Shown here: piece after piece, positions 30,982-36,834 of the stretch
How the letters are laid out: every line of letters begins with the position of its first letter
Numbering within the stretch: the stretch's first letter is position 1
Source: Verrucomicrobia bacterium LP2A
GTDB lineage: Bacteria > Verrucomicrobiota > Verrucomicrobiia > Methylacidiphilales > Methylacidiphilaceae
Direction: 5' to 3'
Length of the DNA stretch: 64,000 nt
Assembly: GCA_000526255.1 (NCBI GenBank)
Contig: JAFS01000002.1
Location: 744,001 to 808,000, forward strand
The notes under the pieces: generated by a model
Told to the model about the DNA's origin: nothing
Seen by the model: only the letters and a program-made list of their open reading frames with translations
The model's database searches: none
Program-made: the position numbers and the translations under genes

Positions 30982-31305
30982 ATGGAGAAATCGGCTGCTG
31001 GCAACGCAAACGGAACGGAGAAGGCCGCTGCAGGGGAAGCCGAGGCGGAGGTCGTGATCCGCAACAAGCTTGGGCTTCATGCTCGTCCGGCGGCCATGTT
31101 CGTCAAGGTCGCGAACCGCTTCGTCTCAACTATTCAGGTCGAAAAGGACGGGGAAGTCGTCAACGGCAAGAGCATCATGGGGATCATGATCCTCGCCGCG
31201 AATCAAGGATCCCGCTTGAAAGTATCCGCAAAAGGGCCAGATGCCGCGGCTGCGGTAGTCGCGCTGTGCGAGCTCGTCCAGAGAAATTTCGATCAGGAGG
31301 CTTAG
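30982..31305 (+). CDS. ptsH: Phosphocarrier protein HPr
   Basis: The 107-residue protein has the EI phosphorylation site RNKLGLHARPAAMFVK (His33) and the HprK serine site in NGKSIMGIM (Ser64). Both regulatory inputs are therefore kept. An alanine/glutamate-rich extension of about 20 residues precedes the normal HPr fold, which is unusual. It lies between hprK and ptsI. Confidence 0.96.
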   Translation: MEKSAAGNANGTEKAAAGEAEAEVVIRNKLGLHARPAAMFVKVANRFVSTIQVEKDGEVVNGKSIMGIMILAANQGSRLKVSAKGPDAAAAVVALCELVQRNFDQEA

Positions 31306-31405
31306 CCGGGCGTTCCTCTTCCGGGTGGCGGGATTGTCGTGCTCTCCGATTTCCGGCTCTTGCCTTTCGCCGGAAACGACTTTTCTTGCTCCAACGATTC
31401 TCTTC

Positions 31406-33160
31406 ATGAGCGGCAGAGCGGAAGAATGCTTCGCAGGCGTGGCGGCTGCGCCGGGAGTGGGAGTCGGGCCGGCGCTTGCGGTTCGCGGAGATTACCCGTT
31501 TATCCGTCGACGGCCGATCGTGGCGGCGCAGATCCCGGAGGAGCTCGAGAGGCTCGAGGCCGCGTTGCTCAGGACTCGGGGAGAGCTCTTGCGGGCCAAG
31601 GAAGATCTCGTTCGCTCCTGGTCCCAGGCAAGCGATTCGCTCTTTGAAGCGCATCTGCTGGCTGTCGACGATCCCACGATCCTCGAGGCGGTGAGAAGGC
31701 GGCTCGAGTCGGAGAAGGTCTGCGTCGAGGCCGCCTATCAGGACGTGATTCGCTCCTTCGTCGCGCAAATGGAGCGCATTGATGATGTCTACCTGCGGGA
31801 AAGGGCGCTCGACGTTCGCGACGTCGGAAAGCGGGTGCTCCGAAACTTGCGGGGGGGCGAGGAGGAAGGCTTCGCACTCGACAAGCCCCGCGTCGTCATC
31901 GCCGACGCTCTCCTGCTTTCCGATCTCGTCTCCCTCGATCGTCGCCTGCTCTTGGGAATGGTGACCGAGGAGGGCAGTCAGACCTGCCATGCGGCGATCC
32001 TGGCGCAATCGCTGAACATCCCCGCCGTCGTGGGCGTTCGCGGCATTCTCGAGCGGATCGATGAGGAAGTGGAGGTCTTGGTTGACGGTTTCGCCGGCGT
32101 CGTGATTCTCCGCCCTTCGGAGGAGAGGAAGGCGCAGGCGCGGGCCGATCAAGCGCGCTTCGTCGCCCAGACCCGGGCGGCCAGAGAAAAGCGAGGGCCG
32201 GCCATCACGAGAGACGGGCAGCAGATGCGGATCTCGGCCAACGTGGAGCTTCCGGAGGATCTGCCTCTCATTCGTGAGAACGATGCCGACGGAGTGGGGC
32301 TCTACCGAACGGAGTTTCTCTTCCTTCGCTCCGAGAATGGGCCTTCCGAGGAAGAGCAGCTGGCCGTCTATCGTGAGGCGGCCGAATGGGCGAAGCCCCA
32401 TCGGCTCGTGATCCGCACGCTCGATGCGGGCGGAGAAAAGCTTCTCCCTTGGCTTGCCGTCAGGCCCGTGGAAAGAAACCCGACCCTGGGTTTCCGCGGG
32501 ATCCGTCTTTCTCTGGAAAGACAGGAGATCTTTCGCACGCAGCTCCGCGCGATCCTTCGCGCGTCGAGCCAAGGCAACGTCTCGCTCATGTTCCCGATGG
32601 TGACCGACGTGGGAGAATTTCGCTGCGCCCGCAAGCTGTTGCAGGAGGTTCGCCAGGAGCTCGTGGCGGAAGGGCATGAGCTTGGGGAAACACCTTGCGG
32701 GGTCATGATCGAAACGCCGGCCGCCGCCCTCATGGCCGATCTGCTTGCCGAGGAAGCGGATTTTTTCAGCATCGGAACCAACGACTTGGAGCAATACACG
32801 CTGGCCGTCGATCGGCTCAACGACCGAGTTTCCTCTCTCTATCCGACCCCTCATACGGCGGTGCTCCGGCTGATCGAGAGTGTCGTGGGGCATGCGCGCA
32901 AGCTTGGCCGTTCGGTGAGCGTTTGTGGGGAGATGGCGAGCAACCTCGCGCTGCTGCCTTTTTTTGTTGCGCTCGGCGTGGAAGAGCTAAGTATGGGCTC
33001 CGTTCTCATTCCTCGGATAAAGACCGCCGTCCGGCTCGTTTGCGCCGCAGACGCCCGCGACGGGGTGGCTGCTGCCCTCGTGCGGAAAGAGGCCCCCGAG
33101 GTGTTGGAGGAGCTGAACCGGCTGGCGGAGCGCTTTTATCCCGAGCTGCTCGCCCGGTAG
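31406..33160 (+). CDS. ptsI: Phosphoenolpyruvate-protein phosphotransferase (EI) PtsI
   Basis: The 584-residue protein is full-length EI, which takes phosphate from PEP and gives it to HPr. The PEP-binding C-terminal half is well kept (GVGLYRTEFLFL, NPTLGFRGIRLSL, FFSIGTNDLEQYTLA, SVCGEMASN with the active cysteine). The phosphohistidine motif near residue 195 is divergent: EGSQTCHAAILAQ instead of GGxTSHxAIxAR, so the usual Gly, Ser and Arg are replaced although the His remains. ATG 31406 is chosen over an unconserved upstream frame. No EII component is in the window. Confidence 0.94.
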   Translation: MSGRAEECFAGVAAAPGVGVGPALAVRGDYPFIRRRPIVAAQIPEELERLEAALLRTRGELLRAKEDLVRSWSQASDSLFEAHLLAVDDPTILEAVRRRLESEKVCVEAAYQDVIRSFVAQMERIDDVYLRERALDVRDVGKRVLRNLRGGEEEGFALDKPRVVIADALLLSDLVSLDRRLLLGMVTEEGSQTCHAAILAQSLNIPAVVGVRGILERIDEEVEVLVDGFAGVVILRPSEERKAQARADQARFVAQTRAAREKRGPAITRDGQQMRISANVELPEDLPLIRENDADGVGLYRTEFLFLRSENGPSEEEQLAVYREAAEWAKPHRLVIRTLDAGGEKLLPWLAVRPVERNPTLGFRGIRLSLERQEIFRTQLRAILRASSQGNVSLMFPMVTDVGEFRCARKLLQEVRQELVAEGHELGETPCGVMIETPAAALMADLLAEEADFFSIGTNDLEQYTLAVDRLNDRVSSLYPTPHTAVLRLIESVVGHARKLGRSVSVCGEMASNLALLPFFVALGVEELSMGSVLIPRIKTAVRLVCAADARDGVAAALVRKEAPEVLEELNRLAERFYPELLAR

Positions 33161-33172
33161 AATGGGAGGACG

Positions 33173-33919
33173 ATGCGTGTACTGATTCTGGCGGCTGGCT
33201 ATGCAACGCGGCTTTATCCCCTCACGCTGAATCAGCCCAAGCCTCTTCTGCCCATAGCGGGGCGTCCCATCCTCGAACACATTCTCGACCGGGTGCGCTC
33301 GCTGGACGGCCCCGTCGAATGCCTGATCGTCACGAATCACCGCTTTGCCGAAGCCTTCGAGGAGTGGGGCCAACGCTACCGAGCGAATCGGCCTGGGCTT
33401 GATCTCAAGATCGTGGACGATGGATCCATTTCGGAAGCGGACCGCCTGGGCGCCATCGGTGATCTCGCCTTCGTGATCGAGGCGGAGAAGATTTCCGAAG
33501 AGCTCCTGGTCATTGCGGGAGACAATCTCTTCGATGCGCCGCTCGACGATTTCGTGGCTTACGGACGGAAGACTGGCAACCCCGTCGTCGGAGTCTATGA
33601 CGTAGGCGATTGGGAGGCGATCCGTCGATACAACAACATCCGGCTCGATGGAGAAGGACGCATCGTATTCTTCGAGGAGAAGCCGAAGAATCCCGAGGGA
33701 ACCCTCACGGCGATCGCCCTCTACTACTTTACCTCGGAGACCTGGGCTCACCTCCGTCAATACCTGGCGGAAGCAGAGAGTCGAGATCAGCCCGGCCGAT
33801 TCATCGAATGGCTCTATCGGCGTCACCCCGTCTTTTCCTGGCGGCTTCCGGGAAGATGGTTCGATATCGGTGACTTCCAGATGCTCGAGCAGGCCGATCG
33901 CGCTTTTGTCGAAGGTTGA
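33173..33919 (+). CDS. Sugar-1-phosphate nucleotidyltransferase
   Basis: The 248-residue protein has the nucleotidyltransferase signature LILAAGYATRLYPLTLNQPKPLLP at the N-terminus and the metal aspartate in VIAGDNLFDAP around residue 119. Later segments FFEEKPKNPEG and FDIGDFQMLEQA are family-like. It activates a sugar phosphate with UTP, dTTP or another NTP. Substrate is not visible from sequence. The next genes make peptidoglycan precursors, so a MurNAc-1-phosphate uridylyltransferase (MurU-like) role is one option, and glucose-1-phosphate thymidylyltransferase is another. Confidence 0.82.
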   Translation: MRVLILAAGYATRLYPLTLNQPKPLLPIAGRPILEHILDRVRSLDGPVECLIVTNHRFAEAFEEWGQRYRANRPGLDLKIVDDGSISEADRLGAIGDLAFVIEAEKISEELLVIAGDNLFDAPLDDFVAYGRKTGNPVVGVYDVGDWEAIRRYNNIRLDGEGRIVFFEEKPKNPEGTLTAIALYYFTSETWAHLRQYLAEAESRDQPGRFIEWLYRRHPVFSWRLPGRWFDIGDFQMLEQADRAFVEG

Positions 33920-33927
33920 GCGGATTG

Positions 33928-35274
33928 ATGTCGGGTCTGTCGAGAACGGGTTGGCGGCGCTTCGAGGAGCTTTGCTACGAAGGGTTTCGCTACCGGCTCC
34001 ACAAGAACCGGATCTCCGTGCTCTTTTCCTTCCGCTTGGGCGATTCCCTGGTGTTTCGTCCACGCAGTTCCTTCCCCGTCACTCCACCTATTCCGGGCAA
34101 GGAGACGCTCGACCTGCTGATTTTTAACCTGGGGCTCATCGAGCTCGTCAGCTACTGGAAGGCAGCTTGCCCGCCGCGGATTCGCGTCGAGGCGGGGCGG
34201 TTGACCGACGAGCAGATCGCCTGGTGGAAACGGCTTTATTTCCGGGGGCTTGGCGAGTTCTTCTTTCGCAATGGCCTTGTCGTCACCGAGGAAGAGTTCG
34301 CAGAAATCAGAACCTCGGGGCCCCGCTTCGCTCCGTTCGAGCGGCGCGACTGCACCGGAGCCCTCGTTCCGGTGGGTGGCGGAAAGGATTCCTTTGTGAC
34401 CCTCGACCTCCTCCGCGCAGGGAAGGCGCCCGTGATCCCCTTTCTCCTCAACTCCTCTTGGGAGCAGCGAAGCACGCTTTCGGCCTTTGGGTTTCCCCTT
34501 TCGTGCACCGCAATCGCGAGGCGAACGATCGATCCCCTGCTTTTGGATCTCAACCGGCGAGGGTTTTGGAACGGACACACGCCCTTTTCCGCTCTCTTGG
34601 CCTTTGCGGCCCTCTTGACCGCCGTGACGCTCGGCAAACGGTGGATCGTGCTCTCCAACGAAGCGAGTGCCGAGGAGCCGACCGTTTTGGGAAGCGGGAT
34701 CAACCATCAATATTCGAAGAGCTTCGCCTTCGAGCGCGACTTCGCGGAATACACGGCCCGCTGGGTTACGCCAAGCGTGGGCTACTTCAGTCTCCTGCGT
34801 CCCTGGAACGAGTTGCAGATCGCCGAGCGATTTGCCCGCATTCCGGGAGCGTTCGAACGGTTTCGGAGCTGCAGCTCTCCCGGACGGAGTTGGTGCGGCC
34901 GGTGCGCGAAATGTCTCTTTGTCGCCCTGATTCTCTCCCCTTTTGCGGAAAGGCGGAGGATTGAGGAGATTTTCGGCCGGGAGATGCTCGAGGATGTTTC
35001 CCTGGCCCCGCTCTTTTTTTCCCTTCTGGGCGGAGAGAAGAGCAAGCCGTTTGCCTGTGTGGGAACGCTCGCCGAGTGCCGGGCGGCGGCGGCGCTGCTC
35101 GCACGTCGGCCTGCTCCTCCTCTTTTGGTGAGGCTCGCCAAAGAGCGGGGCCTCCTGGAAGTTGCCGATCCCTCGGTCGAAACGCTATTGGCTTCCTGGA
35201 ATTCCGCTCATGCTGTTCCCTCGGAATTCCTTCCGCTGCTCGATCCCTCGCGGCCGGCTTCCTTCTTCGCATGA
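33928..35274 (+). CDS. murL: UDP-MurNAc-L-Ala-L-Glu epimerase MurL
   Basis: The 448-residue protein resembles MurL, which epimerises the terminal L-Glu of UDP-MurNAc-L-Ala-L-Glu to D-Glu in an ATP-dependent reaction. Key segments are PPRIRVEAGRLTDEQ and YFRGLGEFFFRNGL in the first third, a PP-loop-like VPVGGGKDSFVTLDLL around residue 150, LSNEASAEEPTVLGSGINHQYSKS around residue 255, YFSLLRPWNELQIAERFA, and a CGRCAKCLFVALILSPF cysteine motif. ATG 33928 is preferred; the upstream in-frame start is a TTG inside the previous gene. Its stop overlaps the ATG of the adjacent MurD-type ligase, the expected partner. Confidence 0.85.
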   Translation: MSGLSRTGWRRFEELCYEGFRYRLHKNRISVLFSFRLGDSLVFRPRSSFPVTPPIPGKETLDLLIFNLGLIELVSYWKAACPPRIRVEAGRLTDEQIAWWKRLYFRGLGEFFFRNGLVVTEEEFAEIRTSGPRFAPFERRDCTGALVPVGGGKDSFVTLDLLRAGKAPVIPFLLNSSWEQRSTLSAFGFPLSCTAIARRTIDPLLLDLNRRGFWNGHTPFSALLAFAALLTAVTLGKRWIVLSNEASAEEPTVLGSGINHQYSKSFAFERDFAEYTARWVTPSVGYFSLLRPWNELQIAERFARIPGAFERFRSCSSPGRSWCGRCAKCLFVALILSPFAERRRIEEIFGREMLEDVSLAPLFFSLLGGEKSKPFACVGTLAECRAAAALLARRPAPPLLVRLAKERGLLEVADPSVETLLASWNSAHAVPSEFLPLLDPSRPASFFA

Positions 35275-36605
35275 CTCCCAATCTAGAGCTGATCCGCTTT
35301 CTCGAAGGGAAAAAGATCCTCGTCTGGGGCCTGGGCCGGGAGGGAAGGGCGACCATCGATCTCCTCCAGCAGCTTCTGCCCGGGCAGCCCTTTGTGGCCG
35401 CGGATCGCAGCTTGGCTGCTCTGGAAGCCGCCGAGCTCGTCCCGCTCCCGGTCGATCGGCTTGAGGAATCCGAAGCGCTGCGGCGGCTTCCGGAATTTGA
35501 CCTCGTTTTTAAGGCTCCGGGCATTCCGACGCGCCACCTCGCTCTCGATGGTCAGGCGGGGAAGATGACCTGCCAAGCCGATCTCTTCCTCCAATTTGCC
35601 CCTTGCCCGATCATTGGCGTCACCGGAACCAAGGGAAAGAGCACAACCGCATCCCTGCTGGCGCATCTCTGTCGGTGCGCGGGCCGGCAGACCTTTCTTG
35701 TCGGCAACATCGGCATTCCGCCGTTTGCGGTCTGGAGCGATCTCCGGCCCGGATCGATCGTGGTTTGCGAGCTCTCCTCCTATCAACTCGAGCTTGCGCG
35801 AAGCTCTCCCCATATCGCTCTTTGGACCAACCTCTATCCCGAGCATCTCAACTTTCATGGAAGCTTCGTCGCCTACGGGCTGGCCAAGAGCCGGATCGCC
35901 CGTTGGCAATCCGCGGACGACGTCCTGATCTACTCGGGCGACGATGCCAGGATTGCCGACCGCCTCCGGATCGAAGGGGGTTCCGCCCGGAGAATCCCCT
36001 ATCGAGGACCGGAGGATCTGCCGGAGATCGATTTTTCCCGCTTCCAGCCACTCGGTCAGCATAATCGGAAGAATGCGGCAGCCGCTCTGCTGGCCGCGAA
36101 GGTCTTGGGAATCCCGTCATCGGCAATGCAGGAGGCGATCGACTCCTTTTCGCCCTTGCCCCATCGGCTGGAGCCGGCGGGCTCGGTCCGAGGGATTGCT
36201 TTCTACAACGACTCGATTTCGACCGTTCCCGAGTCCGCTCTGGTGGCCCTTGCGGCCCTTCCCCGCGCCCAGACCCTGATTGTGGGAGGGCAAGACCGGG
36301 GGTTGCCGCTGGAAGGCTTTGCGCGTTCTCTGGCGGTTTCTCCTGGCTTGCAGTCGATCATCCTTCTCCCGGAGACCGGTTCCCGGCTCGGGGATCTCCT
36401 GCGGGGGGCCAACGTTTCGTTCGCCGGAGAGCTCTTCTTCGCGGAAACGCTCGAGGCCGCAGTTCGCACGGCGATCGCGGAAACCCCGGAAGGGGCATCC
36501 TGCCTCTTTTCGCCCGCTGCTCCCAGTTACAACGCCTACCGTAACTTCGAGGAGCGCGGCAACCATTTCCGGGCCCTGATTCGCCGGGCACAAGGCGAAA
36601 CCTGA
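35271..36605 (+). CDS. murD2: UDP-N-acetylmuramoyl-L-alanine glutamate ligase (probably L-Glu type, MurD2)
   Basis: The 444-residue Mur ligase has the N-terminal GLGREGRATIDLL, the ATP P-loop GVTGTKGKSTTASLLAHL around residue 115, NIGIPPF, ELSSYQLEL and TNLYPEHLNFHGS, and LGQHNRKNAAAALLAAK. Classical MurD adds D-Glu. Because this gene is translationally coupled to murL, it is more likely the L-Glu-adding form MurD2, whose product MurL then epimerises. Specificity cannot be proven from motifs alone. The family match to a MurD-type ligase is firm. Confidence 0.85.
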   Translation: MTPNLELIRFLEGKKILVWGLGREGRATIDLLQQLLPGQPFVAADRSLAALEAAELVPLPVDRLEESEALRRLPEFDLVFKAPGIPTRHLALDGQAGKMTCQADLFLQFAPCPIIGVTGTKGKSTTASLLAHLCRCAGRQTFLVGNIGIPPFAVWSDLRPGSIVVCELSSYQLELARSSPHIALWTNLYPEHLNFHGSFVAYGLAKSRIARWQSADDVLIYSGDDARIADRLRIEGGSARRIPYRGPEDLPEIDFSRFQPLGQHNRKNAAAALLAAKVLGIPSSAMQEAIDSFSPLPHRLEPAGSVRGIAFYNDSISTVPESALVALAALPRAQTLIVGGQDRGLPLEGFARSLAVSPGLQSIILLPETGSRLGDLLRGANVSFAGELFFAETLEAAVRTAIAETPEGASCLFSPAAPSYNAYRNFEERGNHFRALIRRAQGET

Positions 36606-36637
36606 AAAAGAGAAGAACGACGCGGCAGAAGCGATCC

Positions 36638-36709
36638 TGGGCAGGCAGGGATTCGAACCCTGAACCAAGTGCTTAAAAGGCACCTGCTCTGCCGTTGAGC
36701 TACCTGCCC
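36638..36709 (-). tRNA. tRNA-Lys (anticodon TTT)
   Basis: On the minus strand a 72-base cloverleaf is clear: acceptor GGGCAGG with CCTGCCC, D-arm GCTC-GAGC, anticodon stem GGTGC/GCACT with loop CTTTTAA, and T-arm CAGGG-TTCGAAT-CCCTG. The discriminator is A and CCA is not encoded. It lies just past the murD-type gene on the opposite strand. Confidence 0.95.
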
Positions 36710-36834
36710 ATGGGTACGCTAGCGAAGGGGAGAGGCCCCTCCAAGTGAAAAGCGCGCCTGTGCGCGCGGAGCGCGGGGACAAACTCTCTTTGCGGCGGGC
36801 GACGGAATGGATATGCTGAGGGACTTTCTCGCTT

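Follow-up and report, generated by a model that had tools for sequence, protein, structure and literature searches.

A murL-murD gene pair as the probable MurI-independent route to D-glutamate in a Methylacidiphilaceae bacterium, with a predicted QueC/QatC-like fold for MurL

How does a bacterium whose genome holds no evident glutamate racemase obtain the D-glutamate of its peptidoglycan? The question is raised by two overlapping genes of Verrucomicrobia bacterium LP2A (Methylacidiphilaceae), which lie within a 64,000-nucleotide stretch (the window; positions 744,001 to 808,000 of contig JAFS01000002.1, here G000:C2:744001-808000) of a 2.47-Mb genome assembled in three contigs and estimated to be 99.9% complete. 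The two genes are as follows.

33928..35274, + strand: murL, a 448-amino-acid (aa) open reading frame (ORF), assigned by its NF041275 match, predicted fold, and motifs.
35271..36605, + strand: murD (putative MurD2 type), a 444-aa Mur ligase, assigned by its TIGR01087 match, pocket residues, and place in the MurL-linked clade.

This pair very probably constitutes the MurD2-MurL route to D-glutamate, replacing MurI and canonical MurD in this genome. Both reactions of the route have been assayed with enzymes from Xanthomonas, Micromonospora, and Salinispora (PMC8788868), and by analogy, the window proteins would perform the same two steps. MurD would attach L-Glu to the UDP-MurNAc-L-Ala precursor, and MurL would then flip the precursor-bound L-Glu to D-Glu at the expense of ATP, which is converted to AMP. 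Epimerization would run via an adenylate, as MurL's discoverers proposed, with details that we infer for the present enzyme; that an oxazolone may arise from the adenylate is our own suggestion.

A sequence-only reading of this DNA had proposed a translationally coupled MurL and MurD-type pair, and profile searches bore it out. Both ORFs are intact and overlap by four bases (ATGA), which join the murL stop to the murD start (ATG 35271), and the searches place 33928-35274 in MurL and 35271-36605 in MurD. The MurL ORF matches NF041275 (MurL) over residues 29-438 (NCBIfam profile search; E 2.6e-76, 256.9 bits), the sole NCBIfam family that it matches, and shares 38% identity over 380 aa with the annotated MurL of Xanthomonas sacchari. 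Its partner scores 285 bits against TIGR01087, above the cut-off of 212, and is 37% identical over 463 aa to the X. sacchari neighbor of MurL.

Residues lining the glutamate pocket suggest which enantiomer this MurD uses. In X. oryzae MurD2, E197 and R358 (equivalent to D182 and K348 of Escherichia coli MurD) set the choice between L- and D-Glu, the double mutant E197D/R358K is a D-Glu ligase, and E. coli MurD K319T accepts L-Glu (PMC8788868). The window MurD carries Glu at the D182 place (LYPEHLN), Ile at the K319 place, and Arg at the K348 place (GGQDRG), and its pocket reads E/I/R/P/S/Y, compared with E/I/R/P/S/F in X. sacchari MurD2. In the aligned MurDs adjacent to MurL, the first switch position is E except for three with D, the second is I except for one with L, and the third is R throughout, whereas E. 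coli MurD and 49/49 aligned Verrucomicrobiota MurDs not linked to MurL hold D or N, K, and K. The arginine does not identify the type by itself, since Streptococcus agalactiae MurD reads T/K/R. In a maximum-likelihood tree built with the switch columns retained, one branch (Shimodaira-Hasegawa-like approximate likelihood ratio test, 99.3) divides 31 MurL-linked MurDs, including that of X. sacchari, from 31 canonical ones; the canonical side includes second MurDs of MurL-bearing genomes, and the long-branch sequence L200 was left out. At the level of sequence, E/I/R versus D/K/K at these positions thus appears to separate L-Glu-type from D-Glu-type MurDs. By pocket and clade the window enzyme would be of the MurD2 type, with a probable preference for L-Glu. 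In another Verrucomicrobiota family (G217), the MurD at L030:186-1454, partner of a divergent MurL, reads D/I/R.

The absence of murI, suggested by the sequence-only reading, was confirmed, as neither a glutamate racemase (TIGR00067) nor an Asp/Glu racemase (PF01177) was found in the whole 99.9%-complete genome by searches that were positive in 10 of 14 control genomes. That reading had also named a second murD as evidence against itself; none was found genome-wide, the other Mur ligase matches being well under the cut-off and corresponding on contig C1 to murE, murF, and murC. These belong to a division and cell wall cluster (C1:93000-110000) comprising ftsI, murE, murF, mraY, ftsW, a murC-murB fusion, ddl, and ftsA. 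murD usually sits between mraY and ftsW, where its slot also lies in the four relatives examined. In the C1 cluster it is absent from this gap, which is taken up by a 270-aa ORF (L032:7854-8666, G000:C1) that matches no family and contains a LysM-like stretch. A D-amino-acid transaminase was considered as a D-Glu source and rejected, since the best candidate, an IlvE-type enzyme, scores as a branched-chain aminotransferase (337 bits, cut-off 246) and falls short as a D-amino-acid transaminase (210 bits, cut-off 277). The other Aminotran_4 match lies inside a long frame that we take to be a putative PabB-PabC.

Several observations weigh against the MurD2-MurL reading. DapF in Chlamydia also racemizes glutamate, and the genome encodes one DapF. 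No MurI match at E 0.001 was found in 242 of 388 Verrucomicrobiota genomes, even with a canonical MurD, so a missing MurI proves little alone, and we rejected it as sufficient evidence. The MurDs examined from MurI-less Verrucomicrobiota (many of them of genus code g6) read as D-Glu type. At about 257 bits, MurL is under the curated cut-off of 700 for NF041275 (MurL_Xanthmoales); since the model and its cut-off both carry the Xanthomonadales name, the window protein is placed as a MurL outside that group. Finally, E. coli MurD D182E/K348R did not take L-Glu (PMC8788868), and for this reason the pocket residues are no proof of L-Glu use. One could accordingly picture the window MurD as an ordinary D-Glu ligase supplied by DapF or the IlvE aminotransferase through a secondary reaction, with MurL serving another task. 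The single DapF, the sub-threshold transaminase match, and the many Verrucomicrobiota that live with a canonical MurD and without a detectable MurI lend it something, but the MurD2-type residues at all three switch positions, the placement with Xanthomonas MurD2 inside the MurL-linked clade and outside canonical MurDs, and the four-base overlap, which indicates coupling to murL, speak against it, and we regard it as improbable.

The MurD2-MurL pairing recurs well beyond this genome. When 84,980 species genomes were scanned, at least 588 MurL relatives were confirmed, and the loci of the 80 best were examined. These 80 come mostly from Bacteroidales, along with Lachnospiraceae, Oscillospiraceae, Erysipelotrichaceae, one Chlorobiota, and one Methylacidiphilaceae, and in 79 of them MurD lies directly downstream of MurL. 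Closer to the window, murL and murD are neighbors in 7/7 MurL-bearing loci examined from the same order (with a gap of ~0.6 kb in one). Adjacency at both distances argues that the pairing is not due to chance. None of 48 genomes among the best MurL relatives, many of which are metagenome bins whose completeness is not established, has a MurI above the cut-off, although weak racemase-like matches occur in 16. Of the 388 Verrucomicrobiota, 10 genomes gave MurL (one of them weakly) and 108 gave MurI above the cut-off, and the two sets do not overlap; the MurL-bearing G078 does match MurI weakly (E 2.6e-6). MurL is present in 13/13 genomes of the window's family and in two of three from the sister family, and was found in none of the remaining families of the order. 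A general spread across Bacteroidia was ruled out, as MurL occurs in 2/396 genomes; it is therefore rare there and found in particular lineages.

Some MurL genomes carry traces of the canonical ligase. A second MurD match was seen in about 30 of the 48 (G399-G446, behind L084-L163), though MurI was not above the cut-off, and the intact second MurDs sampled are nearly all canonical (D/K/K), L200 being atypical. In four MurL-bearing Bacteroidales (L185, L186, L187, and L188), all that remains of MurD in the mraY-ftsW slot is a C-terminal domain, ~180-190 residues long. These remnants have nearly the same start in 4/4, are 49-60% identical to the corresponding part of full MurD, and are changed at K348; they look like the retained product of a single ancient deletion. 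In two further cases MurL stands without an apparent partner. The MurL-like protein at L031:6824-7972 (E 1.7e-18) has both of the motifs described below and no MurD within the stretch examined, and may, as a related enzyme, serve a different function; the MurL relative on a Pseudonocardia plasmid has no annotated MurD beside it.

What kind of enzyme is MurL? It has been said to lack known conserved domains (PMC8788868, PMC5808125), and a Pfam search with the window protein, taken to E 10, gave no match, PF06508 (QueC) included. Its AlphaFold2 model (predicted local distance difference test, 91.5; predicted template modeling score, 0.92) resembles QatC most closely (Z 19.0, residues 11-406), followed by QueC (Z 12.9) and Cap9 (Z 12.3), with TtuA and other PP-loop enzymes at Z near 8. 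A GGGKDS loop occupies residues 150-155, of which GGGKD (150-154) is invariant in a 39-row alignment, as are C315, C323, C326, and C329. The cysteines form a C(x)7CxxCxxC motif in the window protein, the first spacing being C(x)9 in most other members. Both features are close variants of the QueC hallmarks, SGGxDS and C(x)8CxxCxxC (PMC13329287), and the MurL relatives of X. sacchari and Pseudonocardia carry both with different spacing. The divergent MurL mentioned above (L030:1454-2827) retains GGGKDS and has lost all four motif cysteines. A sequence-level link to QueC was sought and proved weak: TtuA matched at E 0.0016, the QueC model matched 5/39 members (best E 0.0015), and hhalign gave a probability of 11% against E. 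coli QueC, aligned at the cysteine motif. The QueC-fold claim hence rests on the predicted fold and the motifs, and without a PF06508 match MurL would be a QueC relative by fold and a non-member of that family. On these grounds we predict that MurL is a PP-loop enzyme of the QueC/QatC fold. PP-loop enzymes activate their substrates by adenylation, with release of AMP, and such a fold would suit MurL because its chemistry converts ATP to AMP. Recent papers on the QueC family (PMC13329287, PMC13279940) make no mention of MurL.

Since its best structural neighbors are QatC and QueC and not an epimerase, MurL might be thought a QatC/QueC-like modifier of a nucleobase or protein that precedes murD incidentally. 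The protein matches MurL over its full length, however, while profile searches returned no QueC family above threshold; MurD adjoins MurL in nearly all of the 80 best distant relatives of the at least 588, as well as in annotated Xanthomonas, and the genome is otherwise without an evident D-Glu source. A modifier role is accordingly very improbable. MurL-MurD2 is likely to be an old transferred unit, shared by Verrucomicrobiota, Bacteroidota, Chlorobiota, Bacillota, Proteobacteria, and Actinomycetota, in which a PP-loop enzyme of the QueC/QatC fold has been diverted from modifying nucleobases and proteins and acts as the epimerase, adenylating a peptide alpha-carboxylate so that the stereocenter can be flipped.

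The pair ends a run of genes on the same strand and is followed by a tRNA gene.

Frame ending 30973, before HPr, + strand: HprK, named by inspection of the translation.
30982-31305, + strand: HPr, named by inspection of the translation without a profile.
31325-33160, + strand: enzyme I of the phosphotransferase system (PTS), named by inspection of the translation without a profile.
33173..33919, + strand: sugar nucleotidyltransferase (PF00483), directly upstream of murL.
36637-36710, minus strand: tRNA-Lys, downstream of murD.

The murL ATG (33928) lies a few bases past the nucleotidyltransferase stop. The sequence-only reading had pointed to this HprK-PTS and nucleotidyltransferase context; the genes do adjoin the pair, and the order hprK-ptsH-ptsI-NTPase-murL-murD holds in 7/7 loci examined from the family, whereas the PTS genes and nucleotidyltransferase were not seen beside murL in the sister family or in other phyla. 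Because this order is restricted to the family, it has no bearing on function, and we rejected a functional tie. The nucleotidyltransferase, for which no NCBIfam equivalog scored above the cut-off (MurU, 45 bits versus 250), is a neighbor in the same gene run and dispensable for the route.

According to the published list, MurL occurs in rare actinobacteria and in some of the Gamma- and Alphaproteobacteria (PMC8788868); orthologs of low similarity have also been noted in a fungus, an amoeba, and cyanobacteria (PMC5808125). A search of the open-access literature, with most subscription papers outside it, turned up no report of MurL from either Verrucomicrobiota or Bacteroidetes. The suggested extension of the route to another lineage in fact reaches several (Verrucomicrobiota, Bacteroidales, and Bacillota). 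The route itself is known; new here are the pair in Verrucomicrobiota, Bacteroidota, and Bacillota, a putative rule for telling MurD types apart by sequence, and, for MurL, a predicted fold with candidate catalytic residues. Earlier work described the pathway as restricted to a small number of genera that include many pathogens, and on that ground put it forward as a target for narrow-spectrum drugs (PMC8788868). With the pair also present in Bacteroidales and Bacillota, some of them gut bacteria, and in a whole family related to acidophilic methanotrophs, such a drug would hit a wider set of bacteria. The QueC-like PP-loop fold names residues for the mechanism of an enzyme hitherto without recognized domains, and the E/I/R versus D/K/K positions could correct MurD annotations: X. 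sacchari MurD2 is itself annotated as a D-glutamate ligase.

Set beside known systems, the pair departs from the chlamydial use of DapF as glutamate racemase, another MurI-less way of life within the same superphylum. That solution needs a D-Glu-specific MurD, which by pocket residues this genome lacks. Canonical MurD, working with MurI, belongs to the same Mur ligase family and shares the substrate UDP-MurNAc-L-Ala, but it has a D/K/K pocket where the window enzyme has E/I/R, falls in a separate clade, and requires free D-Glu from MurI. QueC, QatC, and Cap9 share with MurL the predicted fold and, in closely varying form, the phosphate loop and the cysteine motif with CxxCxxC (PMC13329287, PMC13279940); MurL differs from them in having no PF06508 match and no 7-deazaguanine context, and in a reaction that is the epimerization of a peptide residue. 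The closest counterpart is the Xanthomonas pair, from which the window proteins differ in being only 37-38% identical and in belonging to Verrucomicrobiota, a phylum outside the published list; the X. sacchari MurL also has a longer first cysteine spacing than the C(x)7 of the window. X. oryzae MurD2-MurL (XOO_1320, XOO_1319) presents the same adjacent arrangement, murL then murD2, with MurI absent, and the X. sacchari pair resembles that of the window in its overlapping ends, its E/I/R pocket, and the GGGKDS loop and four-cysteine motif of its MurL.
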